Below, one piece after another: positions 1,117 through 51,245 of a stretch of 64,000 nucleotides of DNA. Location of the stretch: positions 9,430,485-9,494,484 of the forward strand of contig OZ004583.1 of assembly GCA_963924555.1 (NCBI GenBank), given 5' to 3'. The notes beneath the pieces are model-generated. The model was not told where the DNA came from, did not search any database, and worked only from the letters and a program-made list of their open reading frames with translations. Every line of letters begins with the position of its first letter. The stretch's first letter is position 1. Both the position numbers and the translations under genes were made by a program. This stretch comes from Crambe crambe. Its lineage: Eukaryota > Porifera > Demospongiae > Poecilosclerida > Crambeidae.

Positions 1117-1184
1117 TCTCCTGCAAATCATTAATGCGCATGCGCTTTTTTGCCGTAGAAACCGGATTGAAAAAAAGCTCAATC
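1117..1184. promoter_or_regulatory. Shared divergent promoter region
   Basis: Only 68 bp separate the start of the minus-strand gene (ATG at 1116) from the ATG of the secreted protein at 1185. The interval holds a short CpG-containing stretch (atgcgcatgcgc, 1133-1144) of the NRF1-like type. Promoter function is inferred from the head-to-head arrangement. Confidence 0.35.
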
Positions 1185-1945
1185 ATGAAAGGTTTCTTAG
1201 TGGTACTGTGTTTCTTTATCGTTTCTTTTAAATGGTGTGATGCCAAGCCAGTTGGTAAGTGAATAATTTTACTGCCCTGCTTTTGATAGGTCTGTTAAAT
1301 TTATATTCATAATCCAGAACACATTGCATGCTCCCCTGATGCATCATGCCCAGAAGGTTATGTATGCGGAGAAGGAAGCTACTGCATCCATATCTTAACT
1401 ACCACACTTTCATTTGGTTCTGAATCAGGTGAGAATAAGCTAGCAGAAATGGTATCTTACTTATTAAATCACATATAGGTGATGGAGTCGATGTGGGGTC
1501 CAGCGGTGGTGGATATCGCAAGAAGAAAGATGCTGGAGGTGAAGAATCAAACTCTGTTACAACAAGAAATTTATTCTTTCGCAAGAAGAAATCAGCAAGT
1601 GTCAAAGATACTAAGGTCGGTATGTATCGGTTCACCAACAATAAAGAAATGGGACCTAATACGAAATTGGAGAAAACAAATATAAATATAAAATTAAGTG
1701 ATAAACCTCAAACAAAGAGCCTCGTCTTGTTAAAAGAAAAACTAAAGCATTTAAGTGAAATGAAAAAAGACTTATTAATGAAGATTGGAGATATACAAGA
1801 CCGTATTCATGATCATGAAGTAAAAACTGCAGCAGTGGTTGATGGTATTATTGTTGAGGGACAAGAGAAAAAGTTTTTGGTAGGAGATGTTCCTGGAGAC
1901 TTTGCACCCCTCATTGATTTGGGAGACTATGAGAATTTCTTGTAG
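1185..1945 (+). CDS. Secreted coiled-coil protein with a small cysteine module
   Basis: Three exons (1185-1254, 1318-1428, 1479-1945), all joined at phase 1, give 215 aa. Residues 1-20 form a clear signal peptide (MKGFLVVLCFFIVSF, then CDA). Next comes a four-cysteine module with about five residues between cysteines (CSPDASCPEGYVCGEGSYC), similar to the follistatin N-terminal (FOLN) module seen in the neighbour at 3104. The rest is Lys/Arg-rich and then a helical heptad-like region (about residues 140-180). It is the first of three tandem secreted coiled-coil genes. Function is unknown; an extracellular structural or matrix role is inference. Confidence 0.7.
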
Positions 1946-2156
1946 CTGGTTACCCGTTAATTTCTTCAGACTTGAACTGATACATCGGGACTATAACATT
2001 ATTCATTGGGCCTCATTCACCAAACATTATTATATTCAGACTGTTGACATTATTTTTGATACTGTGTACCTAATTTTCGTACTGACGGGAAAAATTGAAT
2101 TTGCGGACATGCGCAATACGTAGCTATAGATACGTCATTTCGACTTCTTTTTCAAG

Positions 2157-2973
2157 ATGAAGTTGGCATCATTCACTTTTATTGTTCCATTCTTCCTTAC
2201 CCTCTGTCAAGCAGGGGAAAGCGGCAAGTTAACTGCGTGTTTAATAGCTAGAGTAATGTATTGGTTTCAGCTGGCATGCAGTGGCTAGTTATGCTGAGCA
2301 AATAATATAGCAAAATTTACCAGGAGTGCAATAGCTATATGTATTATTTGTAGATGTACATCGAGATTTATGGCGACGAGATGCTGGAGATGAGTTAGAT
2401 GCTCAGTTGCAAGAGGAACTTGCCTTACTCAATGAGAAAATTGAAGATTTGCAGGCAACTACAGATAAAAAAGAAGTAAAAGAAGGAGTGATGAAAGTTC
2501 AGATAACATCTATGGACACAGATCACAGTGATGTCATAGCCGACGATGACAGTCTGTGGACATATCAGCGAATAAGAGGGCTAGTATCACAACTGAACAC
2601 TGCAATATACGCTTATGCTGATCGACTTTCTACACAGGTCACGACATATCGCAAGTATCGCGAGAAGTTTAGGCAGTGCAGTGGAAAGTTGGAACAGGCA
2701 GTTCATGGGCAGAGGAATGCAGTTCAAGATAAAATAAAACTACAGGAGGCTTTGGATGATTTGCAGTCCAAGCACGATGCCCTTCAGCAAGTTTATGAAA
2801 AGGTTAAGGACATCAATGAGGATAACAGGCAACTCATTGAGAACCTACGGGCAAATAGAGATAGATGCGTTCAGACCCTATCTAACAGGAAGAAAACTAT
2901 CGATAGCTTGAGGACCCAAGCTACTGAACTGAGGAGGCAAATAGCTCGTTACAGAGCAAGAGGACATAAGTAG
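2157..2973 (+). CDS. Secreted coiled-coil protein
   Basis: Two exons (2157-2223, 2354-2973) give 228 aa. The intron starts with GCAAGT, a canonical GC-AG donor, and keeps phase 1. A signal peptide is evident at residues 1-20 (MKLASFTFIVPFFLTLCQAG). The rest is almost entirely helical, Glu/Lys/Gln/Arg-rich, with long heptad patterns such as LALLNEKIEDLQ near the start and QTLSNRKKTIDSL near the end, indicating one long coiled coil broken at about residues 55-85. Only one cysteine pair candidate exists. It shares gene structure and layout with the flanking secreted genes, consistent with tandem duplication followed by divergence. Confidence 0.7.
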
Positions 2974-3103
2974 TCAGAGCTTTGAAAAAACGAAGTCAGA
3001 ACAAAATAATATAGCTAGCATGTCATACCATACAGTTACTTCATCATCATACATACCCATCTATTGAGCATGCTCAGTGCGTGTCTATAGTAACACAAGT
3101 TCA

Positions 3104-5047
3104 ATGGCGCAGGTATACTTTTTTCTCGTGCTCATCTCATGTATCGTTTTACTTCAGAATTGTTTTGGATCTTTACTACAAAATGATAGTAAGTTGCACA
3201 TGGCTGTTGCTGCTACTTAAGCAGCTGGAAAACTAATATGGTACCAGGTAGCTAAATTAAATTTTTATCCTGACAGGTCTTGATCTCGTACATAGGCTCG
3301 AAGAGAGAGAAATACGAATAGAAATGAACCATGGGAATGAAGTACACATTGACACTGACAGCAAGGAAGATACAATCTACGAGGAAGACTTAAAAAGAAT
3401 ACTAGCAGAGAATAAAAATCACATGATATTACTTGAAGAATTAAAAAATGAGGAAATGGAACCAGCAGATGACCACACAGCACTACTGAATGAAATAAAC
3501 AGTAACGAAGAAGAGTCGTCAAGACATGATATCATGAGGGCAGAGGATGAAGCATCTAAAGGACCGGTAAAAAAAATTAAGGTGGCACTCAGTAAAGCAA
3601 CAGTAGACGAATATTCCAACGTGAACCCTATGAAACTAGAAGACGTAGAGATTGAAGCACTCTTGAAAGAAATAGAGAACGAGGAGGGACAACAAAGGAA
3701 TGGTTACATCAATTATTTGAGAGCAATTGCAAAGGATCAGCAAATGATAATAACAATTTTGAATAAACTGAAAGAACTAGCAGAAAAGGAACCATGCAAT
3801 TCAGATGACTTGGTAGAAGAGATTGCTGCCCTGAAAACCCTGAAAACATCCATGAGAAATGTACACGATTTACCATTACTACAAAGGAAAAAACGATCAG
3901 AAGTCAAAGACAGATTGAAATTGGCAAAGGTACAACGGGACAAACTCCTCAAACTTATCAGAGAATTAAAGAAGTATAAAAACCTATCGAGTGAAAAAGA
4001 CCAGGCAAGTTCCCTGATGAAAGTTAATACCGAAAAGAAACAACTTTGTATTGAAGTGAAACAAAAGAAACAGGAGATTGAGGAGGAATATAACGATCTA
4101 AAAATGCGATTAAAGCATAAAAGAGACCATGTGATGAAACTTCTGAACGATATTTTGATAGAAGAAGAAACTGGTGAATTAGCGAAGAAGCCCAGCGTAA
4201 CAATTGTAAGGAGGACCAGAGTGGCAGGTCGTGTAGACCAAGATCGTTGCAGACGTTGCGAGGACCTGAACGAAGAAGAAGTGTGTGGAGCTAACGGAAA
4301 GACATATCGGTCCCTTTGTCGTGCCATTAACTGTGCTGGACTGCACATGAGTGACATTTCTTACGGTCCTTGTATCAGAAAGGTTAGAGTCGAGTGTTGT
4401 TTATTTTAAAATACACTGTATCATGCAGGACGTGTGTGCCAATGCTAAATGCTCAACTGGGGAAGTCTGTGTTGCGATGACATATGCTACATGTCTTACC
4501 CTCTACACCAAGGACGGCTTCAAGAAATTTTCGTGCGAACGCTATCTTTGTGGTAAGTATTTAGCCAGCTGGCTATTATGCAAAATTATTTTTAACAAAC
4601 AAATAAATTAGTGAAGGTAGGTAACTGTAACCTAGAGAAGTTTTCTGAAGTATGTGGAACAGATGGGAAGACATACAGCTCTCTCTGCCACTTGTACAAA
4701 GCTGGCCAAAAAATGGTTTACACGGGAATATGCCGTCAACATCTCTGCACCGGAGAGGTGTGTGGAGCAGATAAGAATACATACGAGTCTTCTTGTCATG
4801 CTCGTGCACACAAAATGAGAATTGACTACAAGGGGCATTGTTTTCGGTGAGTGCTGAATTGTTTCGTCATATATAATAGCCATCACATTGAAATTCATTA
4901 TAGTGCTTCTCCAGGATCACGGAGTCAGGTGACCAGCTGTAGAATTATAAGATCAACTGGGCGTTGCCAAAAAGAGGTTCTATGCAGAAACCCTCGTATA
5001 CCAGTGGACAGCTGCTGTCCTATTTGTGGTATATTATCATGTATACA

Positions 5048-5108
<61 letters not shown>

Positions 5109-5664
5109 ATCTATAGGTGGTGTGGTGGAGGTGACCCTGGATACCAGATTAGTGTCAGATTTTGTTTCTCAGTGGGAAGGAAAAAATCACTTGTATGTTT
5201 TGATAAATATGTTTCGTGGAATGCTGCCAAAGTATGCTGGGGATAAGTGTGATCTCTCAGGCTCTATGACTGATGGTGGCAACATTTCACTTGTTTTGGA
5301 AGCAATTAATGCAGGAGACCATGCATTATGTGAATCAGCTTTAATGCATCTGGCCAAGAAGATCAATAACAATCATTCTTTCCCAATGCGCCCTACCTTT
5401 AAAATAGCTGCAAATATAATCGAGATTATAACCAGGGAAGGACTTAAAACACTTCAGGATAAAATTACTAAAACTCCCGAGAAAATAAAAAATGTGATTG
5501 GTACGAAAATTGGAGAAACTTTGGAAGAGACGGAGGATAGACTCGATGAGGTGGAGGAAATTGATGATTATGATTACGAAGATGAAGAGAGCATTGGATG
5601 GATTTCTTCAGCATCGTATTTTTTGGTTATTTCTTCCATTGGTATGGTAACACTGCTGTTCTAA
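3104..5664 (+). CDS. Secreted, GPI-anchored-type coiled-coil/Kazal protein, RECK-like C-terminal half
   Basis: Six exons (3104-3188, 3277-4382, 4429-4552, 4612-4846, 4904-5028, 5117-5664) are phase-consistent and give 740 aa. After a signal peptide (1-26) come about 310 residues of charged coiled coil. Kazal-type modules follow: residues ~352-397 (EEVCGANGKTYRSLC), a follistatin-like FOLN segment ~398-438, Kazal 2 ~443-475 (VCGTDGKTYSSLC) and Kazal 3 ~477-516 (VCGADKNTYESSC), then a VWC/CHRD-like CCPIC motif near 555. An acidic DDYDYEDEE stretch precedes a 17-residue hydrophobic end (ASYFLVISSIGMVTLLF), as in GPI-attachment signals. Three Kazal motifs plus CCPxC plus a GPI tail recall RECK, a metalloprotease inhibitor, but the N-terminal half is unlike RECK. 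The protease-inhibitor role is inference. Confidence 0.7.
5050..5102. repeat. (AT)n microsatellite in intron 5 of the Kazal gene
   Basis: About 26 uninterrupted AT units fill most of an 88-bp intron and end just before the tctatag acceptor at 5116. Its length is likely to vary between individuals. Confidence 0.9.
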
Positions 5665-5707
5665 TAATTGTCTGCATAGCTACCAATTATTACTACCATA
5701 ACCTCAA

Positions 5708-6892
5708 TTATTGTTGTTCAAAAAATGGCAGATGTGACAGAAAATTTATGTCTGAAGAATCACTGTCAGTACTGCTAACTTCAATGGCATGTTTATCTTG
5801 AGGAATGTAAAGTTGGTAGGGGGCTTGCATTAATTTCTCACAGTCTGGTTGTATTGCTGTTATTTTCCTAAATGCCACGCAGTGTAAGTGAGTATCTTTG
5901 AAGTATTTCCAGCGATGGAACCCAATAGACTCTATGCAGAACTTCCAAGCCTTCATCATAGGGGCATGTTTATTTTGGTGAGAACTGTCTGGGGTTATCA
6001 ACAGGAGGAGACCATGAAGTCTAAGTAAACGGTGAGCTCTGATGCAGCATTTGAGGCGCTGTTGAGGGAGGGGTAGATAGGAGAGAAGAAGTGAGAAGAC
6101 GACAATATCATAATTCTCAGCATACAGAATCTTCTGTTTCAAAGGGGATGGGGCTCTTGGGATGTGGTCAGTCTTATCGTGTATAGGAACTGAGAGAAAA
6201 TCACACTCCAGCACACTCTGAACAGAAAGGAACAATTATTATTATTATTAATAATTGACACCCACTCTCCCTTGCCATACCGGATGTGCAGGAGCAATAT
6301 CGATAGCAGTGACTTGAAACTGTGGATAAGATTGGAATGGATTGTAACAGCTCCCCACATCCAAGAGAGAAAGGCGTCTAGTACAAAACTCCTCAACCAC
6401 TTCTGCTACCTTGTCTTCTGTGCAGACGGGAAAAGGGGTGGAGACGAGAGTTGGCATAGAATGGTTCATCCTTCTCAGGTCCTTTAGCAAGAGTTTACGG
6501 AGAGCACCCTCTGGGCTAAAATACTCTTTAATTGCCTCTGTGCACCATAAAATTCGGCTTCCACTCCTGCCTCCTTCTCCCTCCGTCCATGGCCCAGTGG
6601 CTAACTGATGCATGGCACGAGAATACTCCTCCAGGGACTCTCGGTCAGCAAGCAACCTTGACCACACTCCTTCACGATCACAGCCTGTAGAAAAGAACAG
6701 CCTGGTACCTAGTCTCGCCCGATTCTTTCTATACTGGCTATGATGCTGGTAAGTGAGTACCCATGCCTATTTACCTATGCACTTACCTGATCGAATCTCT
6801 CTCCTAAGACGTGCATGAAGTGCTTTGACCGTATCAGCCTGCTTCCTCGCTTCAATCGCATCACCGTCACTGGTCTGGAGAGAAATGGCCAT
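5708..6892 (-). CDS. SAMTOR: SAMTOR / BMT2, S-adenosylmethionine sensor upstream of mTORC1
   Basis: Three minus-strand exons (6892-6787, 6684-6281, 6217-5708) give 339 aa, close to the size of the human protein. SAMTOR (BMT2, C7orf60) is a class I methyltransferase-fold protein that binds SAM and, when SAM is low, represses mTORC1 through GATOR1/KICSTOR. Family signatures seen here are LLDVGSCYNPF at about 142-152 (SAM-binding motif I), an acidic strand-end ID in TAIDIAP, VVFSLLLSYLP, the highly conserved LLLLITPDSSHQNKHA, and a late YIPQD motif. The gene ends only 44 bp from the stop of the convergent Kazal gene and starts 73 bp from the divergent glutaredoxin gene. Confidence 0.93.
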
Positions 6893-6965
6893 GACACATA
6901 ATATACTGAAAGAGGTAAAGATCGTTAATCAACTCGTAGAGAGAGCCGAGTCAGCAAAAATTAGC
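6893..6965. promoter_or_regulatory. Shared promoter between SAMTOR and glutaredoxin 2
   Basis: The two ATGs are 73 bp apart and face away from each other, so both promoters must overlap here or lie within the neighbouring 5' sequence. No TATA box is visible. The role is inferred from spacing. Confidence 0.35.
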
Positions 6966-7503
6966 ATGATTTTAAGGTCTGCGGTCTTTTTAGGAGTCTC
7001 TTTGCACCGCCATTTGCATTCATCTTCTTCGTCTCTCTGGAATCTTCTATGCAAATCAAGTTACCCTAGCGTCAAGAGTGAGTCCTAGTCCTCCCTAGTA
7101 GCCTAGTGCTGTATCAATCCTATCATGATGTTCATGTCCTAGGAATGGCCAATGCATTTGTGGATGAAAGTATAAAGGAGAATAAAGTTATGGTATTTTC
7201 CAAAAGCACTTGTCCTTTTTGTGTGATGGCCAAAAGGACATTGGATAACACTGGTGCTGAATATAAAGTAGTTGAACTGGATGTGCGAGGTTAGTATCTT
7301 CTTTCTCTTTCTCTTATACTCCTCATTCTGATCCAGGTGATACGTCTGCTGTCCAGGACTACTTGTTGCAACTGACTGGTTCTCGTACAGTGCCTAGAGT
7401 TTTCATAAGTGGAAAATGTATTGGAGGAGGTACTGATGTGAAGGCTCTGGCTGACCAAGGAAAGTTGATTCCTATGCTAAAGACAGCTGGAGCATTATCC
7501 TAA
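6966..7503 (+). CDS. GLRX2: Glutaredoxin 2-like, probably mitochondrial
   Basis: Three exons (6966-7077, 7143-7289, 7337-7503) give 141 aa. Residues 1-37 are Arg/Ser/His-rich and lack acidic residues (MILRSAVFLGVSLHRHLHSS), like a mitochondrial targeting signal. The glutaredoxin core follows: active site CPFC at residues 61-64 in KSTCPFCVMAKR, the TVPRVFI cis-proline loop and the CIGGGTDV glutathione-binding loop. The enzyme reduces glutathione-mixed disulfides. A second in-frame Met at residue 39, just after the targeting region, could give a cytosolic form. Vertebrate GLRX2 has CSYC at the active site while this one has the GLRX1-type CPFC, so the subfamily call rests on the targeting region. 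Confidence 0.88.
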
Positions 7504-8179
7504 TCACTCACTCTTAACATTATCTAATTACACAATAATTTGACCGCAAGTGGTCGTTCAATCTAAATTTCCTGCAGCCTAATAGACAGGATATACAGTA
7601 TAAAGTGCGAGGCATGCCGGCATGCATGCAGCATTGGCTGGCCTGACGATCTATGCGCGGTGCAACAGCTGAGCCGGGTACGGGTAGATAAGCTCCAGTA
7701 TTGATATTTGCTCGAGCAGCTAACAGCAGTTTAGAAGCCAGCGCGGTACGGTCAGACTGTTGGTGGTATGGTGGCAGGTTAGTCCGCTTGCTAATAATAT
7801 AATGTAGCTAGTAGCTAGCTAGGAAAATCAGAGTGATGGCTTCGGGAGCGGACACAGCAGTATATCCAAACTGTGTACTTGCATGTTATAGATAGATGGA
7901 CTGTATTGAGTTGAATGATCTGAGTCTGAGTTATTTAGTAAACTTTATTCTTGGAAATAATTGTGTAGTTGTCTGGTAGTTTAATAGCAAGCTGTGCAGT
8001 CATTCAAGTTATCTGTGCAGTCTGCCTGTCAATGAACTGCAAGCATTGATTGAAATATCACTAATTGGCAGCTGATAGCGATGATAGCAAAAGAATTAAT
8101 AGGCCTAAGAATTTCTTGCACTTGTTCAGCCAAAGTGATGTGGAGTGCATGTTTATTTTGCTGCAGGTAGCCTCATCTA
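7504..8179. other. Upstream region of the FoxP gene; no coding sequence seen
   Basis: This 676-bp interval shows no supported exon. It contains a palindromic gcatgccggcatgcatgc stretch near 7611 and several agctagctagc words. A 5' untranslated exon is possible near 7760-7790, where ggtggcag is followed by gttagt, but cannot be shown without transcripts. Confidence 0.4.
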
Positions 8180-9576
8180 ATGGCTGCAGATTCTCCGGTC
8201 TTTGCAACACTCCGACATCCCATTCCCACCACTTCTTGCTCCTCCTCACCTTCCAGATCTACTGCATCCTTCCCTGGCACTGAGCCACGCCTCCCTGCTT
8301 CTGACCCCTTGCAGGGACTGATCCAGGAAATGGCCCTGAGTGCTGTCATTCAAAAACACAGCTCCTCCGTCTCAGCCCCGCCCACTGCACCCTCACCTCA
8401 CACTAACGGCACTATCATTAAGAATTACATTATCCAGCCACCTACTTCCTCGGGTCCCCCTTTTAGTGAATCACCCGTTCAACCCCCACCATCCACCATT
8501 GCATCCCTGACTCAGCAGAACCACACAGCTCAAGGTCCCAGTGTGGTTCTTGCTCCAAGTAACATGCAGCAAGGCTTCATCACCCTCTCAGCCACGGCCT
8601 CACAGGCCAGTGGAGGTGTCTCTCTCCTGCAGGCTCATCAGCCCAGTCCTGTTATCCAAGGTGCTCCCTTGACACTGCCTCAGTTTCAAGAGGTGGCCAC
8701 TGCTAACCCGACCAATATGGTTCAGTTGACACCCGTGTGTTATGGTAGCACTCAGACACCTCTCCCCTCGCCTGCTGTGGACCGTTCAGCTGTCTTGCAG
8801 CAGCAGAATATCGTTGGGTAAGTCAGTCTAACAGTTGGTGTTTGATGTGGTGAGCGGGAGGGTCAATGACGTAAGGTTGAATGCAATGAGCATTACTAGT
8901 GCTATCTGTTGCGTGGTACAATTGCAGCACCTGTTTCCCCTGCAGACCAATGGACTTACTAGACTAGACACTATGCTCTCATTCAAACTTGATGTCTTGC
9001 TGCAAGCTTTTGATTTCAGACTGTGACATTTTTAATCAATGTAATGTAGGAGACGAACAGATGTAGTCCAATGTGTAATAGGATGTACGTAGCATGTAAG
9101 AGGTGCATGCAGTTGATTCACCTCTCAGTTGAATGGTTAACACTTTTCAATCTTTGTACCATTACTGTACTGTTAGTATCTTTTGTTATCATTGTAGTCC
9201 TTTTTGCTCTTAGAACTCTATTGATCTGCATGGTGTATCATGTATGCATTTCGAGCAGCTCTTTAGCCTGCTGTTACTTTAGAAGATTTGAGCCGACTTG
9301 TGTGCCTAATTTTATGTTGTTTATTTATTTGTGTACTCACGTTGCATGCTTGAGTTAATGGCGGCTTGAAGTAGTGTGTAGTGGGGAGGGAATGGAATGC
9401 TCTGATGTGTTTCAAGCAAAAGCTAGTTCTCACTCTGTCTCTGATTCTTGCTTATTCTGCCATGACATTACTAACTCCTTCATCTCGCACTCCAGGCTAC
9501 CTATGGCAACAACTTGCTCCATGGTAGGTCAAAGTTCAGCTCCAGTTCAAAATTATTCTCTCACAGCTGGTAAGTG

Positions 9577-9618
<42 letters not shown>

Positions 9619-12600
9619 CATGTGGCATGTGCATATATGAACTTGATGACCTTTGGTGTGAATAAAGCAACTGTTTAAGAGTGTTAATTGCTGTTAAATG
9701 CCAATAGAGTGCAACTTTCCAGTTTTCCAGTGGACTTGAAAGGTAGGTGAAGATTGCGTGGCACTCATTAGGGATAATCCAGGCCATAATTGCGGGCAGT
9801 GGTGAATGAGTGAGCTGTATAGGAGAGACAAATTGGTTGATGGCATTGTTTGTTCTTGATTTGATGTTTGTGTGTTGTTTAGTTGTAGTGTAGTGGTAGC
9901 AGTGGTAGGGCTACACCTGTTGTCCTGTTGGCTGGCCAATCAGATTCCACTCAGTCACGTTCACTATGTCCACAACAAGTTCATTTGTTAATGTCATTCA
10001 CAATGTTGTTTGTTGTGCAGGGAGTGTGATTTTTAATTAGATTCATGATGTTGTTGTGTGTCGGTGCAGTCATATTAGTGTGTGTCAACAACTTGAGTTG
10101 TGGATGAGTGAATCCTGGCCTGTGTTGACTGAATGTCCTGCCCTGCCCTGTCCTGCTTACTCACAACAAGTTCTTGTTTATGTTTGGGGGGTAGTGGATG
10201 GCAGTACATCTAGCTGTTCCCAGGTGCTGTTATTGTTTATGTTGCAAGTGAAAAGCCACAAATCTGTTGTTGTCAACATGGACATTTATCTTCTTGTAGT
10301 TTCCACAAACACTGGTGGTGTGTTGATATCTCCTCACCCCTGTTATGTTGTCAGTGAAGCTAGCAGCATGCAATGCAGCCAGCCTGGCTGTGTGTTATTG
10401 TTGTGGTGTACAGAAGCAGTCATGTCCACACATCCTTTTCCTGCCTTGTCATCTAATCCAATTGACATGGAATGATCTCAGACTTGTTGTTGTTTATTTG
10501 TTGTTATTGTTATTGTGACTTCCCTGCCTTGTGGGGTAATGTGGGAATGGGGTCATACAAGGAGTCTTTGAGGCTACATTATCCCACAGCAAGTTCTTTG
10601 TATGCAAGTCAACATGATATTCCTGACACCACCTCTAGTGTCAACAACCTTATCTCATCAGTAAACAAGGCTTTGTGCTGAGAAGCCAGTCATGCTCCGA
10701 TCCCATGGTTTGAGGGTTTCACGTGTCATTAATTCTCTCCCTGTGGTCAGGCAATGTTGGCAGAAGTGTCTCCATCCCGTGTGCACTGTTTGCATCCCAG
10801 ACATGTCTGGTAGTCCACTTAATGAAATGATAGCTTCTCTTTTGTTGTGTTTTGGCAATCTTATTTACATTGGCTAGCCTAAAGGGACACAATTAGCTCT
10901 CCCTCCCCACATGCATATGTATGGACTCCACACATAGTCATCTTCATGCACTTTATCATTTCTTTTGTTTCTCTCGTAGAAGAGTGCAAAGTCTTATTGG
11001 ATGAAAGGACTTTAATCTGTCGCTGGCCTGGTTGTGGGGAGAAGCTGCTCTCACCTTCAGCGCTTGCCAGGTGTGTGTGTGTGTGGATGATAATGTGCGT
11101 GTGTGGATGATAATGTATGTGTGGGATTTATATGGTAAGCTTCACAATATTGATAGTAAAAATAACAATATAGCAAACAATCATCAATAATAACAACAAC
11201 AATAACAATAATAATAGAAAATGCTACCCAGTGACAACACTGAAACCAAAAGTATCCAGAAGCATACTAAATCCAATAGTTATGGTTAACCTCCCTCTAG
11301 CTGACATCACCCTGCCTGACACACCTATTAGTGCACCGACCACCATGGCATTGTTAGCTCCCACCATCAACAACATTAGCTTGTGCATAGCCTCACCTGG
11401 AGTTAGAGCTAGTCTAGTGTAGGCTGGTAGACCATAAGCAACCAAACACACCCATACCATAAACACAGGTGAGTAGAAAAACTAACAGAAGGTGGAGTTA
11501 TTGTTGACACAGCAGAATGGACTTGTTGGTTTCCACAACAGAAAAAAAACAGCAACATGTCTCCCTCTTTGTTTTTTCATCTTATCTGATCTTTCCAGCA
11601 TGTGCTGTCTCTCCATGCATCATATCATCCTATTTATAATGCAGTCACCTATCCTCAGAACACAGTCTCAGTTCCAGGACAAGAGCCCAGACTAAAGTGC
11701 AGGCACTCATTGTGGAGCAGTTGGACCAGCAGGTATCGTAATGCTATGGGATGGGATGGGATGGGAGGCACGGCTGAGAGAGATGGGGAGTGTGTGGTCA
11801 GAGTATACTGGTTTGTTTTGTCTAGTAGTGGGCCTTGATGTTTGTCTGGAGTTCTATCCTTGCAGACAACATCTGTGTCCATGGCCACTCTGGTAGTCCC
11901 AGCCAGGGAAAGACTTGATTAACATCCCAAGATATAGTTAATCGAGTTGTCTGAACATTAACCTGGAGATGTAATACAGCACTCACTTGAATTGCATGTC
12001 CGAATGTGTGGAAATGGTCATTCTTGATAGCTACTCCCATTTTTCTATGAGCTGGTCTTTTGTTACCCACAGCTAACCATGGAACAAGACAAGCTTAAAG
12101 CAATGAAGAAGTTTCTGAACATATCTGAAGCTGAAGTGAGCTCTCCTTGCTGCAGCAATTAAGCCATTGATGTCTTTCTTTCTCTGTCCAGTTGGAGACT
12201 TTAGTGGCCACAGAGTCTCAAGCTGAACACTTGATCACCAATGGGAACAGTGCTAGTGCAGCCACACCCACTTCTTCTCCAGCTCCTCCTATGAAGACCC
12301 CCACACATTCAGTTGCCATGCCAACACCATTGGTGCAAGCAGTGTACGACAGGAACTCGCAGCAACCAGTCTATATTATCCAATCGGGAAATGGCCCTGC
12401 CCTCATTCCTGTGCAAGGGATTCAGATGGCTCCACCCTCTCAGAGGGCAGGACACAGCAATACCACACCCCTTACCAACTCTGCCCTTACCATCCCCACT
12501 TCTCTCAACTTGGATCAATTTGCTGGAAAGGGAGGTGTGGCCCCACTGCACACACCCACCCCATCCACACCCAACACGCTGAGTTTTTCCCAGGGATATG

Positions 12601-14469
12601 GGGGAGCTAGTTTGGATGGGCTGATGCAGCCATCCCCTCTTCTGATTCCGCAGTCCAATGGGGGACTGCACCCGAGTGAAGCTGGACCAATCAGAACAAT
12701 AGTCCGACAAGCAGCCAAGGAAAGACCTTCCCCTGTTGCCATGGATGGTAAGAATAGTTATTCCATTTGGTGACATTCCATTACTGTATTATGTGAAGAA
12801 TGTTGTTGCTTGTTCATGTTGTTGTTGATATGTTTACTGTTTATCAGAGTCTCAGGAACAGCTGCGCAAAGCAATTCCTAAGTATGCCAATGTGGACCAG
12901 CGTCCTCCATTCACTTATGCTTCCCTCATCAGACAGGTACATATGTTTGAAATATTAGTAGTTGCATCATTGCTTACCTCTGTAGGCCAGCAGGAAATAG
13001 CATGAAAGGATATGCATTGTGATAAGGAGTGCATATTAGGCTGCTTGCAAGCTTTGTGCCTGCATCTTGTGGCTAGCCCTCCATTCAACATTACATATCT
13101 CTATTGTACTGTATTGGCCATTTTTCTGCTGTGTACTAACAAACCTCACAAAGCATGAAACAAAACTCTCACCTCAGCCTGGCTTGCTTCTCAATGGTTC
13201 CATACAGCAGCTGTACAAGTCTTTTGTTTGGATTATGCTTGTCAAGCTACACTATCAAAAGTTGTTGATGATTGTAATGTGGCGTGCTCACTTTCAATCA
13301 GTTGGTGTCCGTTATTGTAGCACAGACTCACACGTGTGTGCACATCCATCGACTGTGCACTATTTCACTTGTTGCTGCAGGCTATTTTGGAGTCTAGCGA
13401 GCAGTGTCTGACATTGTGCGATATATATGCTTGGTTCATGAAGAACTTCATTTACTTTCGGGATAACAACCCGACATGGAAGGTAATGTCTGCATATGTG
13501 GAAGCTAGGAAGGTCATTCATTATCTCCTCCCCTTTCTTAGAATGCCATTCGACACAACCTCTCTCTGCACAAGTGTTTTGTGCGGGTTGAATTGAGCAA
13601 GAGTAGAGGAGCAGTTTGGACGGTGGATGACTCACTCTACAAGAAGAAGAGGCACACTAAAGTGTGAGTGTGGTTGTGCCCGTGCCATGGGATGTGGGAT
13701 GGATTGGAATGCAGGACATTCCATGGGATGGCATTATTCATTGGTTGGTTGTGTTGTTTTGTTGATGAGTCGATGTGTGTGTGTAGGCAGGTATCAATTT
13801 CACTGAGAAATGTGGCAGGTATGTAGTTGCTGTTTGTCCCACACAAACATTGGTCACTGTGCGGTGACTCCAGCTAGGTACTATTGATAGCTGTCTTTTC
13901 CTACTTGGCAGACCTAACTTAGATGGAAACACAGAGTCTGTTTCTCTTGATAACTCGGTCCATTTGGATGGTATCACCACCTCACCAGAGAATGAGATGG
14001 GTAAGCAATCTCCCAATCCCCTCACCCCCTCCATTATATCGTCTTAATTGATCGGTGCAGCTGTGGGGGAAGAAGTGCCAAAACTTGGAGAGATGGAACG
14101 TAGTACTTCAATTCTTCCCATCCCCATGGAGGCAATTCCTTCAATGGCAGCAGTATCCTCAGTCCCACTCACTAATGGTCCCATTGGTGACTACTCACCT
14201 CCCTCTGATGGCGAAGGGGTGGGCATGGGGCAGACATCTGATGATGACATGTAAGTGCACACACGCCTTTCATTTGTGCAGTATCGAATTGTGCTTTTTG
14301 TGGTGAATGCAGTGAAACAGAAGGAGAGAGTCCCAAAATGGCAGAGCTAGAAGTCAAAGAAGAAGCCCCTTCCCCACCTTTGCAGCCAAGAGCACTAACA
14401 TCACTAGGAGCATCACTAGGAGACAGCTCTCCTTACACCATCTCCATCAGTGCTCCTGGCCAAGACTAG
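8180..14469 (+). CDS. FoxP: FoxP forkhead transcription factor
   Basis: Twelve exons (8180-8817, 9496-9569, 10980-11070, 11645-11732, 12073-12135, 12192-12747, 12848-12936, 13381-13482, 13542-13663, 13912-14000, 14061-14250, 14313-14469) are phase-consistent and encode 752 aa. Order of parts: Pro/Ser/Gln-rich N-terminus; a C2H2 finger at ~251-275 (ICRWPGC ... HLSSEH), split by an intron; a leucine zipper at ~283-318 ([12 protein letters not shown], then [15 protein letters not shown]); a long Ser/Thr/Pro linker; the forkhead at ~520-600 ([36 protein letters not shown]); an acidic tail. Finger, zipper and forkhead in this order define FoxP. Family members bind DNA as dimers and repress or activate transcription. 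The polyQ of vertebrate FOXP is absent. Confidence 0.93.
9579..9617. repeat. (GT)n microsatellite, FoxP intron 2
   Basis: About 19 GT units follow closely after the donor of FoxP exon 2. A shorter GT tract sits right after the exon 3 donor (11071-11084), so two FoxP introns begin with GT-rich DNA. Confidence 0.9.
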
Positions 14470-14845
14470 ACTTAATGCACCTTGCTGACCACACCTCCAC
14501 CACCCACTCACACTCACTTCATCTCGATTGGGATCTCTTCTTTTTCTGCAACCAGCAACCTCCTCCACTCCACAGCTCTATAAACAACTGGTGGATAGTT
14601 GTATTCACTAACCAATAATAATTATTTTGATAAACTGGCTCAGCTGTTGCTGTACATGTACTGTCATAAGTACCAAAAAAATGTTTTGTGTGCATAATGT
14701 GTGTCCATCTAGTCGATCACAATAGCTTCACCTAAATCTAAAAGTCCTGGTGTTATACGTTAGCCCGGCGCGCCCCTAGTGCGCACGCGCGTGCACGAAC
14801 GACTATGTTTTCTTTTGACGATTCTTACCGTTATTGTCGGTGGAA

Positions 14846-16103
14846 ATGGCTGGTTCTGATGCTGGAGTGGAAATCAGTGGGAATATGGGGGCTACGTCTG
14901 ACTTATCATCTGACCTTGAACTCACAGCATCCCCCAGACTCTCCAGAAAAACCCAGGAAGAAGTAGTGGCTGAGAATGATGCTTCTTTCGGTGGTAATGA
15001 TCCAGAGAATTATCCTCTTCATTCCACTTGGTCCTTTTGGTTTGACAGGTAATTATAGTTAACTCATGATAGAATGGAGAGGCCTAACACCATATTCCAG
15101 GTCTCCAAGGGGAGCAGATGCTGGTGACTTTTTTGCAAACCTCCGGTGTCTTGCCACTGTCACGTCTATTAAGGTGGATACAGAGTGCTAGCTTTAAAGG
15201 GTCTAAAGAAAGAATATGTTCTGAACAACAGGCCTTCTGGCGAGTATTTAACAACCTTCCATCTTGTGAAAAATTACATGACCGGGATAGCTATCATGTG
15301 ATGCGTGATGAGAGACGGAGGCCTGTTTGGTAAGTCCCTACCCATCAGCTGTATCATGTGTGTACTTTACTCTCGCGTATCATATGTAGGGAAGATGCAG
15401 ATAATGCAGATGGTGGCGTGTGGAGTCTCAAACTTGGCAAGCAGAACACGGTGAGAGTTGTGTGTAGAACATACCGTGCAGTGTGTTATCTGGTATTATT
15501 CTACATAAGGAGAAGATCTGGCAGGACATTGTATTGGCAGCAGTTGGAGAGCAACTATCTGTAGCAGTTCACACAGATGATGAGATTTGTGGTGTCTCTG
15601 TTCGCATCCGACGCGATACTGATGTCATTCAGATTTGGAACCAAGATTCTGAATATGCTTCACAGGCTACGGTGATTTATTTGTATATATGATAGTGGTT
15701 ATCTTTATATGCGAGACTGTGATATCATAGGTGATCAGCAGAGTTAAGGAGCTTATCCCATCCATTTTGATAAAGGAATCATTTTATCGCAGTAAGTCGT
15801 CTTGCATGAATGCTGGAGTGCTATATTAGTCTACTCTCTACAGGCAATAAAGACAAGATGGCCGACTCATTAAAAGTTGGTGGTGGTCATGGGGTATCTC
15901 CTCCTCCTCCTATCACACTCGTCTCACAGCGACGCTATACAGGGGCTCCACCCCCCATGTTCCCACCAAGTCATCATGTATCTCATGGCTACCATGGTCA
16001 TCCACATGCATCTCTGCATGGAACAATGTTACCACGTAATCCATTCAGACCTCAGCAACCAAACCACCTTCATCCACGCCCTCCACCACATGCACACCCC
16101 TAG
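14846..16103 (+). CDS. EIF4E3: eIF4E family member 3 (cap-binding protein)
   Basis: Seven exons (14846-15048, 15101-15173, 15232-15329, 15390-15450, 15510-15671, 15731-15791, 15844-16103) give 305 aa. Human EIF4E3 signatures are plain: PLHSTWSFWFDR, FWRVFNNLP, SYHVMRDERRRPVWED, GGVWSL, AAVGEQ and ICGVSVRIR. eIF4E3 is a cap-binding protein that uses one aromatic residue rather than a tryptophan sandwich. Here the residue aligned with Trp56 of eIF4E is Phe78 (Cys in human eIF4E3), while the Trp102-equivalent in PVWED is kept. Exon 7 adds an ~85-residue Pro/His/Gly-rich tail (HPHASLHG, HPRPPPHAHP) not found in human eIF4E3. The exon 2-3 junction rests on a 58-nt intron and is the least certain join. 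Confidence 0.9.
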
Positions 16104-17346: not shown

Positions 17347-19601
17347 ATGGCGGAGACTACTGATAGTCGTGGAGAGTTTGTGAAGGCAGGCTATCTTATC
17401 AAGAGTCCTCCAGTAAGCAGGGCTTTAGTGGCTCAGTGGCACCGCCGATGGTTCCTTCTCATGGATTCGAAACTAGTTTATCCCCTAGCTGAGCGCTATG
17501 TTCGTTTAGATTATTATCAGAGCGAAGCAGATGCAAAGAGACTAGCAGATCCAAAGGGTAATTAATATAGTTGACACCAGTTAGAGAGCTAATTGAATAA
17601 TACTATATATAGCTACGCTCAATTCATTACTGTGACTTCCTACTTTATTGTGAGTGCTAGGATGTGTGTAGCAGGTAGTTTATCAGAGATGGAACCATGT
17701 TCTTTCCTCTACGATAACTGATAACTTAGTTTACTGCTAAGACATGTATGCACAGGATGTTATTGGAGTCTTTAAAAATAAACTGTTAACCAAACATTGC
17801 TGTCATTCATTAATTTGTTTGTAGGTTCGATTAACCTCAACTCTTGTTTGAGCATAGTCTCACGGAATGAGCCTATCAAGAACTTTAGGCATGCTTTCGA
17901 TGTGTGTACCACAGAAAGAGTCTACCACCTTGCAGCTGACACTGAAGAAGAGAAGATAAGCTGGGTTACAACTCTAAAGGAGTTGCTCTTTCCCTCTTCA
18001 GAGGTTAGTCGTCCTTTGATACTTAGACTAAGGGTAAATTATATCAGTTCCTTGCACAATGCCTTTAAATTTGCACAATGCACAGCAAGGACATGACATA
18101 TTCTCCATTAATAAAGCATCACCTTATAGCATGCAACAGTGATGGATTTGTGATATTGAATTTTATAGAATGGTCCAAATCTGGAGCTACAGCAAAGGTA
18201 AAATGTATTGTGCTCATTTATCATAGCTGATACACAATTATTAGGTCCTCTTCCAAGACTCCTGAAATTACGAGGAGAACTCAGGTAAGCCAAATACATA
18301 GTTTAAGAAAAACAATAACTCATCTATGCTTGTATTATAATAGGCAAAGTCCAAACCACAGAGGTAATCATTAGGTTATAAATACAGCTTGGAGGAATTA
18401 GAGGTGCACGGTAGCGTGGCCGAGTGGTCTAAGGCGCTGGTTTTAGGCACCAGTCATTTCGATGGCGTGGGTTCGAATCCCACCGCTGCCAATTTTTTTC
18501 ATACTTTTTTTTTTAAATTTTCAGACCACTCAGTTTTACTGGTTCCAGCAACCAGAGTAGAAACAAAGGTATGTTTTGTGGTGAGTGGATGACCAGAACG
18601 TTTAACTCCCCTTCTCTCACGGTTAGTATCATCACGACCCTTGCCTCCTGTACCAGATACTGTAGCGGCCACTAATAATGACAGGAAGAACCGTCCACTT
18701 CCTGCTCCGCCAACAGAATCATCACCACCATCATCAGCTTTGTCACCAAGTGAAGGAATTCGTATACACCCCATTGGACCACATGTGTCCCCATTATCTC
18801 AGAAGAAGAGAATTAAGCTACCGCCACCAAAACCAGCTCCATATAAGGTTTCTCAACCTTCAAGACCAGAGTTGTCTTACGAAGAGAAAATCCTTCAGGA
18901 TTCCTCTTCCTTTTCGTGTTCTTCTACATCTGATCCAAGTGTTGAAGATTATCAGGAGTTTGTCAGTCAGTTGTCTTTTCAACCTGATCACTACGAATTT
19001 GGACCAGGATTGGTTTCTACAGAGGATAACTATTCACTTGCCACAAGTGGTGGGTCTTATTCTGCCGATCAATTGATTTAAAAAATAATTATTACTGAAT
19101 ATGCAGTACCTCAAGGATGTCAGAAACATTCCCACAACAGCAAAGATAGTATGACATGATATTATTGTGTGTTGGTTAAAAATGTGCATATTAACATGAT
19201 CTAGATTCTTCTATGGATACCGACTACTCTGTTTTAGAGGCTTCTGTTGTACAAGGTTATGATCCCAAAGACCAGGACTACAGTCATTTGGAACCTGGTA
19301 GGTTCTTCCGGTCGACCTATAATATAATAGTTACAATGAAATTGCAGATGTAGGTGATTCTCCCCCTCCTCCTATCCGGCAGTCTTCCCTCGCACAACAC
19401 CATGTCTCAGACACATCCTTACTCAAACCACAGCCTAAGGCAAGAACAAAGCTAAACCAAAGACCACGCAGTGCAGTACCAGGTCAGTTCTTGCCTTCTG
19501 AACGATGCCGTGTGATATTTGTTAATTTTATTGCTTTAGACTACGTTAACTATCCTTCGTCTTCAAGTACAAAGGACGACTACAGCCGGTTACATCATTA
19601 G
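17347..19601 (+). CDS. GAB/DOS-like PH-domain docking protein
   Basis: Eleven exons (17347-17557, 17825-18003, 18169-18197, 18245-18284, 18344-18363, 18525-18568, 18627-19049, 19107-19148, 19205-19297, 19348-19482, 19540-19601) give 425 aa. Residues ~10-130 are a PH domain close to GAB1/2 (AGYLIKSPP, HRRWFLL, YHLAADTEEEKISWV). The rest is disordered with proline motifs for SH3 domains (RPLPPVP, NRPLPAPP, LPPPKPAPY) and tyrosines in acidic or Yx(N/L) settings: DYSHLEP, DYVNYP (a GRB2-SH2 type YVN site) and DYSRLHH at the end. GAB proteins link receptor tyrosine kinases to PI3K, SHP2 and GRB2. Tiny exons 3-6 are supported by phase but not certain. Confidence 0.75.
18410..18491 (+). tRNA. tRNA-Leu (anticodon TAG)
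   Basis: An 82-nt type II tRNA on the same strand, inside intron 5 of the GAB-like gene. The acceptor stem GGTAGCG pairs with CGCTGCC (one T-G pair), with discriminator A. The anticodon stem is CTGGT/ACCAG with loop TTTAGGC, giving TAG. The long variable arm is typical of Leu. The T-arm is GTGGG/CCCAC with the B-box GGTTCGAATCC. A T7 run at 18493-18499 can stop Pol III. There is no intron. Confidence 0.96.
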
Positions 19602-20042: not shown

Positions 20043-21997
20043 ATGCTAGCTACAGCCAGCATTCCCAAACATTCTGGGCTCAGGATAGAGGCCACTGACT
20101 TGCCAGCTGTTGGTGCTGCAAGCATGGCCGAGAGGCCTGCGGCCATTCCTCCCGGGACCACTAGCACTCTCACTGTCCACGCTTCAGCCACGGCTACCAC
20201 GGTCTCAGACACTGAACTTACCAATTTAGGATGGCTCCAGAAGCCAGGAGTACTATCTTCCATGTGCACTGCTTTGACTGGAAGCGATCAGCAGTCGGGC
20301 AGCAAACCAGGAACCAAGAACACTCGGAGACCTCGCCAACCCAAGGGCATCGATGGTCGAGCTACAGAGTTCAGTAGGGCCAGGTCAACTCGTTGTGGCT
20401 CTGACAAAATGGTCAATGTCATCCTCAACGTCCGAAACCGCAAGTATAATGGAGAAGATGCCTGTAAGCCACCCCTATCTTTTGCTTGCATGATCTTTAT
20501 GGCTGTGGAGAGCTCTCCTACCAAGACCCTTCCAGTGAAAGATATTTATGAGTGGGTGATGTGGAAGTTTCCGTATTACAGAAATGCTCCTCCCGGATGG
20601 AAGAACTCTGTCAGACACAACCTTTCCCTCAACAAGTGTTTCAAAAAGGTGGAACGTTACAATGGGAAGGTGAGTGTTTCATGGTAAAGCAAAGCTAGGT
20701 ACATCATCAACTGGCAAGCTCCAAGAAGCAGACTATGAATGTTTTGAATTTTGGATAGTGTGGTTTTAACTGTTCAATGATGCATGATCATGAATAAGTA
20801 ATCCAGCATGTGGCATGGAACATAATCTGGTGGGAAGAGATTCAATGCATGTCGTTCCTGTAGTCTGGCAATGCGATGAGTAAGGGAGGACTATGGACAG
20901 TGGATCCAGACTACCGGCGCAGCTTATTGGAGGCTTTGAAGCGCTCTCCCTACCATCCCTATCATAGTTACTTCACTCCTCCCTTGTCACCAAGGTACTA
21001 ATACCACTCACATGTCAATAGTCTTGTTATCAGTTTGAATTGTTAATCAATGTGGTGGGCATCAAATGGAGTAATTATAACATGCTCTTTCTTTACCCCC
21101 TAACAGTTCCAGCAGCAGCAGTCTAGGTGAGTATTCTAAGTAGCTGCTAGCTACATGTTTTACGATCCATCGTCATAATGCGTGCAGATTCAGTGGACCC
21201 AGCAGAGAGAGATGCAGCTCTTACTATGTGCATGATCAGTGGAAGTCCTGATCAGCCAGGAGCTGTCACACCCAACATTCTCAATGCTGTATTTCACGAC
21301 CACTGTTACACAAAGCGTCCTATCTTCCCACTTCTAACTTCTCCCTCACTTCATCTTCCACAAGTTACTGTCAAGCTCAATACTTCTCGCAAAAAAAGTT
21401 CAGGGTAAGAGTGTTAATTAGTTTAGCCAGGAACTTGCCAACAAGAGGCATGTGACTGCTTATTTGTTTGTAGCCATGGCATTTTCCTTTAAATGGCCGA
21501 CCTGAAGGTATTCAAATGTAGAAAGGTTCCTCGTGAATATTGTGGTGATTAGTCATGAGGTTATGTATGTAGTTGTTTAGGAGCTAGTATTCTTGTGCAC
21601 CTGCCATTGTTTCAATGCAATTTCTAATACAGTTTGACACTGGACGAGATAGCTGCAGCTGCTGAACTGATTCTAGCACAAGATGGAGAGGAAGAGAAGG
21701 AAGTCGGTGGATCTGAAAGCTCAGACGAGGGTTTCGGAGGGGAGGTAGAGAGTGACATTGAGGACCCTGAAGAAGAAATTCAGAAGAAGAAAGTCGAAGG
21801 CCTAGGGGATAGTGGCTATGGAGAATCATCTGTTCCCATGGAAACCAGGTACGCTTCTGATCGATATATGGTTTGTGAATTGATGACCATTACCAAATCT
21901 GATTTGCAGTTGTGCTCTCGACGATGAAATGGGTGCTGATGCACTTCTTTGCCTGGCTACCGGCAGTAGAGGATCATCCCCACCTGCTACTCAGTAA
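20043..21997 (+). CDS. FoxN2/3-type forkhead transcription factor
   Basis: Six exons (20043-20669, 20864-20994, 21107-21126, 21188-21404, 21633-21848, 21910-21997) give 432 aa. The forkhead spans ~141-240: [55 protein letters not shown], and then the FOXN2/3 hallmark [10 protein letters not shown] directly after it. An intron splits the wing region after GK, as in FOXN genes. Exon 5 is acidic ([24 protein letters not shown]). The FOXN2/3 (checkpoint suppressor) group is favoured over FOXN1/4 by the [12 protein letters not shown] and SPYHP motifs. A second Met at residue 28 is another possible start. Confidence 0.88.
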
Positions 21998-29641: not shown

Positions 29642-29832
29642 TCATCCAGTCATTGAACATATCCAAACTTGTCCTTAGAAGCATGTAGTCATTTCAGCAA
29701 GCTCGTCACTCATTCATGCTGCAATATTAACATTTTGTCACATTTCATGTGAATAAAATAATTAATTCACCCACTCAAATACCATTCATATAGTACAATG
29801 TTGCCAAAAACAAGAAAAAAAATGTAAATGAT

Positions 29833-31882
29833 CTACTCCATGAACTCCCACAGGTCCAGATCATAACCTTCATGAACATGCTCCAATAGTGCTTTCCTGC
29901 GAGATTCGCAATACCTGCACAAAACATGATAATACTCTAACGGGTACACGACTCAAAATTACAGGTCTTATGTACGTGCAAAACAAAGCTATGCTACACT
30001 CACTTTGCTTTGTCCTGCACAAATATTTTGATATCAGCAATAGTATTGCTTGTTATGTCCCTTTCCAAATATTCAGATAGCGTTTCGGTGGCCATCTCCA
30101 GATCACGTTGGTTATCCTCAAATATGAGAGTGTGGTTATTTTTGAGCAAGTAATATGCAAAAGCATACGTATACATTAGAGTCTGACGACATTGACAGAG
30201 TACATTCACTGCCTTTTTGAGGAACTGTGCCTTTAAATATAAAAATATCAATCCAGAGATCTTGGCAACAAAATATGACTCACTTCGATCCAAGACATGC
30301 TAAGCTGCTGCATCTCGTACATTTTTTGGTGTGCCATGTCATAAAGCTGCATTGTAAATGAAACGCACACACACTAATACTCCCTTCTCCTCGGATTAAA
30401 GTATGTGACAACCTTATGCTCCATTTTAGAACTCTTAAGGTGATTCACGTATCGATTGCAGTAGAACAAATACCTCTGGAGGGCAGCTCGAGATTTCTAC
30501 AGATAAGGAAACTAACGAATGGAGAAGCGTAGAGAAAACTTATGGACTAACAGCTTGAGCATCCCGAGCAGATTGAGAGTCCGTTTCATTGAATCTATTG
30601 CAGTGATACCAACTAGAGCCATGAGGTTCCCACGGACCCAAACAAGTCCAGCAAAACTCTGCCTTGCATTTGCTGCAAATCATGTGGTTGCAACCGCCAT
30701 TTTTTTCAATGGTAGTATGACACTTGTAGCATTCCTAACGAAATGAGGAGTAAATACCACTAATGCGTGCTATCATATTCTACCTTTGTATTGCAGTGAA
30801 TCCAGTTGGATGTCTCGCTATCATCATCACATTTTTTCAACCACCGTTGCAAATACTCACACAAGATAGGGAGGTGAGGGTCACGACCACACTGGAAACT
30901 GATAAAAATGGGATTCAAGTAACCACATAAGAACCTAAATTCTCCATACCAAAACGAGTATCCACAATCACATTTAACTGGAAGCCTATCTAAATTCTTG
31001 GCATAGACTGCATTAAGACAACCAGCAGCCGGACACCAGCGTAAGTTAGGATTGTCCAACACGAAGCTGTTGGTGATGAGGAATTGGTACTTCAATTTAA
31101 CATCACGCTGACGTAACAGCTCCCTGGAAGAAGAAACAGGATATTACCAAGTTCGATAAAATCAAAGTGCTTACAAGACTGTGGTTTCATCTACAACGAT
31201 ATCACATGCAGTGGCAGGACAGGATATGGTCTGAGCCCGGCCTTCACAGACAACCATCACTTGAAGATACTGGTCCCAACACTCGTGACAAAAAAGGTGC
31301 CCACATTCGAGTCCTGCCATCCCTATATGAGGGTAGGCCAACATGCAGATTTCACATATATATTCTTGTCCAGGACTAGCAGCAGCTCCACATCTCGCCG
31401 TCGATTGTGCCCTGACTTTTGTTGGTGGACCGACTGCAGGTTTCTTTTTGGGGTGGACCAAATGAGCATCGGCAAACAACGCCTCCTGGTCTCCTGCGTA
31501 AAACCTGATAGGGAAGTAATGGCTACGAGTCAAAATTTAAGACACACATTCTAACCTCTCGAGCAGTTTTTCTTTATCCCATTTACAAGTGGTTAAGAGT
31601 ATACGCACATGTTGGGAAGGCATCTACAATGAATACACGGAGCACATTTCTAAGTTCATAATCACACAATAGCTATCTAACCTGAAAAACTTCATTGACT
31701 TCGTCGATAATTTCAAACATCTTTTTTGATATCATATCTGGAGTGAGTGTTTGAGAAGAGGCTATACCAACTTCTCTTTCTCCACCATCAGCATCAGTTT
31801 CGTCCCCAGAAAATTGAAGTACTTCATCCTCAGAGTCACATAATCCGTCGTAGCCATCATATTGGCATTCATCGACTTCCAT
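29833..31882 (-). CDS. ARIH1: ARIH1-type RBR E3 ubiquitin ligase
   Basis: Ten minus-strand exons (31882-31682, 31623-31556, 31504-31175, 31123-30950, 30898-30784, 30734-30552, 30496-30413, 30346-30284, 30230-30004, 29914-29833) give 508 aa. Parts in order: acidic N-terminus, UBA-like region ([17 protein letters not shown]), RING1 ([19 protein letters not shown]), IBR (CPAAGC, CDCGYSFCFQCG), RING2 ([31 protein letters not shown]) with the catalytic Cys at residue 311, and the Ariadne domain ([42 protein letters not shown]). RBR ligases pass ubiquitin through the RING2 cysteine; ARIH1 works with neddylated cullin-RING ligases. All zinc ligands I checked are present. Confidence 0.95.
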
Positions 31883-32163
31883 TATCTTTTATACTACTAG
31901 CTAGAACTATTGTCTATCAAAAGCATAAAGTAAGCTCATAGCGGCTACATACAGTATAAGGAAGTATCACACAGATTATTAGACGAGGTTGAAGCATATC
32001 AGGACGGTCGCGTTGGTAGAATAAGCTGAGGCAGGAATTGGATCGAAGAACCTAGTTTTATAAACATGATGACGTGTGGCGCATATTACTGCCGTGTCAT
32101 GTTCTAAAAATAGCAAATCACGCCCATAATTTCGTAGTCAAGGCAACATTAACACTATTAGAC
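31883..32163. promoter_or_regulatory. Divergent promoter region, ARIH1 and SPAG8-like
   Basis: The start codons are 281 bp apart and point away from each other. No TATA box is seen. A CpG-bearing stretch (aggacggtcgcgttgg) lies at 32001-32016. Confidence 0.3.
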
Positions 32164-50613: not shown

Positions 50614-51245
50614 CAATTGATGCCACCACCATATCTAATTGATGCCCACCATATCTAATTGATGCCCACCATATCTAATTGATGCCCACCATATCTAATT
50701 GATGCCCACCATATCTAATTGATGCCCACCATATCTAATTGATGCCCACCATATCTAATTGATGCCCACCATATCTAATTGATGCCCACCATATCTAATT
50801 GATGCCCACCATATCTAATTGATGCCCACCATATCTAATTGATGCCCACCATATCTAATTGATGCCCACCATATCTAATTGATGCCCACCATATCTAATT
50901 GATGCCCACCATATCTAATTGATGCCCACCATATCTAATTGATGCCCACCATATCTAATTGATGCCCACCATATCTAATTGATGCCCACCATATCTAATT
51001 GATGCCCACCATATCTAATTGATGCCCACCATATCTAATTGATGCCCACCATATCTAATTGATGCCCACCATATCTAATTGATGCCCACCATATCTAATT
51101 GATGCCCACCATATCTAATTGATGCCCACCATATCTAATTGATGCCCACCATATCTAATTGATGCCCACCATATCTAATTGATGCCCACCATATCTAATT
51201 GATGCCCACCATATCTAATTGATGCCCACCATATCTAATTGATGC
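50614..51245. repeat. 20-bp satellite array
   Basis: About 30 near-perfect copies of gatgcccaccatatctaatt run head to tail; only the first unit (tgccaccacc) is variant. Homogeneity suggests recent expansion or gene conversion. The array ends directly at CTAGGG repeats. Confidence 0.95.

Follow-up and report, generated by a model that had tools for sequence, protein, structure and literature searches.

A compact gene row around FoxP

Near one end of a large contig of the sponge Crambe crambe, a FoxP gene stands in a row with genes for SAMTOR (BMT2/C7orf60), a GLRX2-like dithiol glutaredoxin and EIF4E3. The window, by which we mean the whole stretch of DNA analysed, consists of the terminal 64,000 bases of contig C5 (9,494,484 bases), in an assembly of 143.1 Mb with 119 contigs and 98.5% of the sequence in 18 large contigs. 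Gene models were built on GT-AG splice sites and open frames, with exons read from the sequence alone, and the spliced models of all four genes have frames open to the stop codon and GT-AG introns. The coding part of SAMTOR (5708..6892, minus strand) comprises three exons separated by introns of 63 and 102 bases, and it is divergent to the GLRX2-like gene (7145..7503, two exons), with 252 bases between the start codons. After a further 676 bases follows the coding part of FoxP (8180..14469), with 13 exons that encode the FOXP-CC region (zinc finger and leucine zipper) and the forkhead domain, and EIF4E3 (14846..16103, seven exons) begins 376 bases past the FoxP stop codon on the same strand. 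No gene intervenes between FoxP and EIF4E3, and only the GLRX2-like gene between SAMTOR and FoxP. The row continues after 1,243 bases with a PH-domain gene (17347..19600; Pfam PH, 3.8e-16), of which the first two exons were modelled (17347-18003) and the later ones placed by eye, and with FoxN2/3 (20043..21997), a spliced model of six exons; from the GLRX2-like gene to FoxN2/3, all genes lie on the plus strand. The original prediction had described a SAMTOR–GLRX2–FoxP–EIF4E3 row at 5708..16103, and the spliced models bear out four genes there, with its coordinates and its span of 10.4 kb; the suspicion that these coordinates were wrong is thereby ruled out.

The names SAMTOR, EIF4E3 and FoxP, assigned by comparison with solved structures and Pfam families, can be regarded as secure. 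The SAMTOR protein is best matched by the PDB sequence 9o5d (E 1.3e-64, residues 13-319 of 339), all four matching PDB sequences are SAMTOR, and Pfam Bmt2 is recognized at 6.7e-10. EIF4E3 is best matched by 4b6u, an eIF4E of type 3 (4.8e-50), and the other 34 of the 35 PDB sequences follow at 8.3e-25 or weaker, with a type 2 protein as runner-up at 8.3e-25, which rules out an assignment to type 1 or 2. With the FoxP forkhead, the top seven of 46 PDB sequences are FOXP2, P4, P1 and P3 (8.4e-36 to 1.3e-31), followed by FOXG1 at 7.6e-21, and the protein contains both FOXP-CC (4.3e-21) and Forkhead (3.8e-27), as is characteristic of FoxP. FoxN2/3 is also clear, with FOXN3 (6nce) at 2.5e-46 and then FOXN1 at 1.2e-26. 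The glutaredoxin (Pfam Glutaredoxin, 7.5e-20) is likely GLRX2: the best PDB sequence is 3uiw, a Glutaredoxin 2 (4.9e-31), other dithiol glutaredoxins are close behind (1.8e-29 onward), and human GLRX2 (2.0e-23) is level with a thioltransferase (3.0e-23).

Copy number in the sponge genome

A forkhead search of the sponge's own genome gave at least 25 exon matches, these counts being lower bounds, and on C5 just FoxP and FoxN2/3. The search with FOXP-CC returned the FoxP of the window (2.3e-5) and one place on C11 (1.9e-5, positions 4-35 only); at this second locus (3.1 kb, L014) tblastn found no FoxP match at 1e-3, and we read it, short of proof, as another zinc finger. The IF4E family gave seven exon matches at four places, on C20, C14, C9 and C5, and the loci on C20, C14 and C9 match the EIF4E3 of the window at 6e-7 to 6e-4, as compared with 2e-87 for its own locus. 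For SAMTOR, the protein search of the genome found the window gene as the sole place; the Bmt2 family search gave no match in the same genome because exons score singly. As far as these searches show, FoxP, SAMTOR and EIF4E3 therefore appear to have one copy each in the genome of 143 Mb, which is what a pre-duplication state requires, and the expectation of a single FoxP holds within the reach of the forkhead and FOXP-CC searches. An IMG/VR scan with EIF4E3 and a GTDB contig scan with the FoxP forkhead found no relative.

Linkage and gene order in humans

In a published list of genes across human 3p13-14, which includes FOXP1, EIF4E3, GPR27, PROK2, RYBP and SHQ1, EIF4E3 comes next after FOXP1 (PMC5651901), and C7orf60, that is SAMTOR, is listed with FOXP2, GPR85, PPP1R3A and others at 7q31.1-31.31 as part of one amplified region (PMC5696175). 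The linkages from which the original prediction started, EIF4E3 with FOXP1 at 3p13 and SAMTOR with FOXP2 at 7q31, as well as the presence of GPR27 and GPR85 at the same two places, are thus in print in these lists. Its statement that three of four neighbours are FOXP-linked counted FoxP itself; it applies to two of the three true neighbours, SAMTOR and EIF4E3. The third, GLRX2, lies at human 1q31 and is not known to be linked to a FOXP gene. Human SAMTOR is situated 5' of FOXP2 in divergent orientation, at a distance of about 1.2 Mb and with GPR85 and PPP1R3A in between, and the sponge arrangement agrees with this, as SAMTOR is here likewise divergent on the 5' side of FoxP, a single gene separating the two.

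Odds under random gene order

Under a model of random order with 8,000-30,000 mapped genes, in which the set sizes of 8 and 100 and a factor of 16 were assumed, so that the results are orders of magnitude, the odds that one of 8 immediate human neighbours adjoins FoxP are 5.3e-4 to 2.0e-3. For the SAMTOR case, in which one of 100 genes located up to about 1.5 Mb away in humans lies no more than two places from FoxP, they are 1.3e-2 to 4.9e-2. EIF4E3 and SAMTOR jointly, after the factor of 16 for the genes looked at, have odds of 1.1e-4 to 1.6e-3. EIF4E3 beside FoxP is therefore the stronger case, and SAMTOR the weaker one.

Origin of the linkage

Our preferred reading is that the linkage of FoxP to EIF4E3, and less surely to SAMTOR, was inherited from an early animal ancestor, and that the order has since been reshuffled; taken as a whole, we consider this an even bet. 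Within it, FoxP and EIF4E3 are probably an inherited pair, and for SAMTOR the chances of belonging to such a pair are about even or below. The single FoxP, not duplicated as in vertebrates, would have been retained close to the end of a chromosome, among tightly packed ordinary genes, with a linkage passed down by common ancestry. In the vertebrate lineage, the block would have been copied by two rounds of genome duplication, and with reciprocal loss EIF4E3 would have remained next to FOXP1 and SAMTOR with FOXP2; the local order would have been reshuffled in one line or both. Our best guess for the retention is slow local rearrangement in a dense gene row, perhaps with elements in the long FoxP introns or in the 676-base upstream gap that are common to the neighbours as an added factor; simple inheritance in a slowly shuffled row, with shared elements as an addition, is the most likely explanation. 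The idea of an old pre-duplication microsynteny is supported in part: it has the single copies, the published human linkages and the low odds for EIF4E3 under random order, with assumed sets, on its side, but it is weakened by the side on which EIF4E3 lies, by the wider neighbourhood and by the introns of the neighbours, which leave no room for bystander enhancers.

Several observations weigh against inheritance. EIF4E3 lies here 3' of FoxP, whereas human EIF4E3 is on the 5' side of FOXP1 and on the same strand. As both arrangements are same-strand, a single inversion is insufficient, and it takes a local transposition, or at least two inversions, to convert one order into the other. GLRX2 and FoxN2/3 share the row and are not known to be FOXP-linked in humans. 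EIF4E3 alone, after correction for looking elsewhere, comes to 0.9-3.2% only, and the result comes from one genome only. Furthermore, none of six other FOXP-linked families lies on C5: SHQ1 and CCDC22 were found on C20, PPP4R2 on C13, ST7 on C19, Bystin on C9 and IFRD on C16. Among these, CCDC22, BYSL and IFRD1 lie near FOXP genes in humans (CCDC22 near FOXP3); the linkage of SHQ1 to the human FOXP1 region (PMC5651901) and of ST7 to the FOXP2 region (PMC5696175) is in print, and PPP4R2 is placed at human 3p14.1-p13 in a published abstract. The whole human neighbourhood is therefore not preserved, and EIF4E3 and SAMTOR, if they are ancestral neighbours, stayed or travelled separately from the other genes; as SHQ1 and CCDC22 are both on C20, another chromosome may here carry the main FOXP neighbourhood. 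Finally, the neighbour published for FoxP in three chordates is FoxQ2III, and on C5 the forkhead search shows just FoxP and FoxN2/3.

SHQ1 (C20:251195-251551) and CCDC22 (C20:1097952-1099897) are less than 0.85 Mb apart, perhaps as the rest of an old FOXP region.

The leading alternative is chance, in a search that could have succeeded in many ways: the genome is dense, there are four human FOXP neighbourhoods and the distances allowed are loose, so that some match is likely and two of three neighbours would be a matter of luck. The choice of the locus was post hoc, SAMTOR alone reaches 1.3-4.9% even before any look-elsewhere correction, human SAMTOR is several genes away from FOXP2 (GPR85 and PPP1R3A stand in the same published list), and both the differing EIF4E3 order and the six families missing from C5 point the same way. 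However, EIF4E3 is an immediate neighbour in both genomes, and the joint odds with SAMTOR stay low after the factor of 16. We regard chance as an unlikely explanation, albeit one to be taken seriously.

Conservation on the chromosome scale only, in which the genes belonged to one ancestral linkage group and their closeness arose by local shuffling and was not inherited, would fit the observation that ancestral linkage groups persist in sponges even as the local gene order erodes, as described in two studies (PMC10719294; PMC12828049), and the placement of FoxQ2III, which is near FoxP in three chordates, on ALG_E/Eb (PMC12828049). Yet, given the same chromosome, a named gene would be adjacent with odds of just 0.2-0.5% (for assumed gene numbers), and we consider this alternative improbable. 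A linkage as part of a chromosome-wide FOXP region or paralogon is ruled out by the six families located elsewhere.

Equally improbable in our view is a regulatory block, in which elements in FoxP introns drive EIF4E3 or SAMTOR, or are common to them, and thereby hold the genes together. Long introns are found in FoxP alone, namely 678, 1,410, 574 and 444 bases among 12, and intron 2 (9570..10979, plus strand), the longest intron among the models made, measures 1,410 bases, in agreement with the predicted 1.4 kb. Compared with 14 introns of the four other row genes, the 12 FoxP introns have a median of 113.5 versus 60.5 bases and a maximum of 1,410 versus 228 bases, and they are longer by a one-sided rank test (P 0.015), which would favour such a block, as would the enhancer-like marks reported on 43 of 60 ancient pairs in the sponge Amphimedon (PMC5429095). 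Intron 2 contains no Rfam family, according to an Rfam scan of window positions 1-36000, and is a candidate site for regulatory elements. In SAMTOR, GLRX2 and EIF4E3 the introns are only 47-102 bases long, so that FoxP elements cannot sit there, and elements in FoxP's own introns alone do not tie neighbours to FoxP. In the usual model, the elements of a regulator sit in the introns of bystander genes. A block held in this way is ruled out here by the intron lengths of the neighbours, and room for long-range elements exists only in the introns of FoxP itself.

Returning to inheritance, a stricter form of it holds that the FoxP of the first animals was flanked by SAMTOR and EIF4E3, one on either side, and that the vertebrate duplication split this set, so that EIF4E3 remained next to FOXP1 and SAMTOR with FOXP2; we put this forward tentatively, as it is possible and somewhat doubtful. 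If true, two genes that regulate TOR signalling and translation would have stood on either side of FoxP ever since animals arose, and joint regulation would be testable in a sponge. If the inherited FoxP pair is confirmed, it would join the short list of neighbourhoods kept since the origin of animals, provide an outgroup for the FOXP1 and FOXP2 regions that are studied for speech and cognition, and offer a test bed of 10 kb for the question of whether regulation or slow shuffling keeps the neighbours of transcription factors.

Comparison with known linkages

Ancient microsyntenic pairs are an established kind of arrangement. In Amphimedon, 60 ancient sponge-bilaterian gene pairs are described as confirmed, with a pair being defined by orthologues with no more than two genes between them in the sponge (PMC5429095). 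FoxP–EIF4E3 with zero genes between and SAMTOR–FoxP with one lie within this spacing. On the vertebrate side, EIF4E3 is next after FOXP1 in the published list, and C7orf60 merely shares with FOXP2 the amplified region at 7q31. Like the ancient metazoan pairs (Irimia et al., 2012; PMC5429095), the present one combines a transcription factor gene with an unrelated gene, both here and in humans; unlike them, FoxP and EIF4E3 have a relative order that is reversed with respect to the human one, and one non-human genome was examined here. In the literature passages searched, which did not extend to the published pair tables, no linkage of FoxP with EIF4E3 or SAMTOR was found outside vertebrates, and the terms 'foxp' and 'eif4e' are absent from the main text of PMC8851819, PMC10719294 and PMC5429095; the FoxP–EIF4E3 pair may already be contained in the published tables. 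In a study of planarian Fox genes, which reports no conserved microsynteny for them, Irimia et al. are credited with some Fox genes in ancient pairs (PMC7859237).

FoxQ2III is reported close to FoxP in amphioxus, lamprey and skate (PMC12828049), and the sponge locus resembles this linkage in having a second forkhead gene near FoxP; it differs in that this gene is FoxN2/3 and not FoxQ2, with no third one on C5 in the forkhead search. FoxN2/3 follows 5.6 kb after FoxP, separated from it by two genes, and the proximity of two unrelated forkhead genes may be a relic or chance. The vertebrate FOXP regions also harbour receptor genes of the SREB family (GPR27, GPR85, GPR173): FOXP1 occurs with EIF4E3 and GPR27, FOXP2 with C7orf60 and GPR85, and in fishes foxp3b is given as the upstream neighbour of sreb3a (PMC8187511). 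No SREB receptor gene is among the annotated genes of the sponge FoxP row, the genome as a whole not having been searched for SREB. With genomic regulatory blocks and their bystander genes, the row shares a developmental regulator with functionally unrelated neighbours, but here the neighbours have minimal introns, and the gaps from SAMTOR to EIF4E3 are 252-676 bases.

The contig end and other features of the window

The contig ends in 4.5 kb of (GCTAGG)n, equal to (CTAGGG)n, at window positions 59517-64000. In the terminal 1,000 bases of the 18 large contigs (36 ends), CCCTAG fills 15 of 18 left ends and CTAGGG 13 of 18 right ends, 28 of 36 in total, with the polarity of telomeres, and canonical TTAGGG/CCCTAA makes up no more than 4% of any of the 36 ends and forms no arrays. 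The eight uncapped ends are the left ends of C1, C12 and C15 and the right ends of C1, C10, C13, C17 and C21, among which C12 left and C10 right contain 23-25% of the repeat in opposite polarity; the left ends of five small contigs have no (CTAGGG)n. A 36-base pattern of the repeat was counted 18,852 times on one strand and 21,541 times on the other, and not once when read backwards. This animal may have (CTAGGG)n as a non-canonical telomere repeat; the literature search, as far as its sources extend, did not find CTAGGG named for a sponge. Proximal to this array, 50615-58933 is taken up by subtelomeric tandem arrays whose units measure 20, 31, 52 and about 224 bases.

A Helitron-like element at 38792-43642 has a frame of 1,616 residues with Helitron_like_N and PIF1 helicase domains, and a frame of 354 residues behind it (44303-45367) has no Pfam match. 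Judged by eye, small coiled-coil genes whose products look secreted form a row at 1180-5670, and the last of them has cysteine-rich, Kazal-like repeats. A tRNA-Leu (18410-18491), the sole Rfam match over window positions 1-36000, falls within the span of the PH-domain gene. Two genes for RBR-type ubiquitin ligases, by eye ARIH1-like and ARIH2-like, are about 40 kb apart at most (29830-31900 and L024:5059-6716, both on the minus strand), and IBR domains were confirmed for the one at 29830-31900 only.

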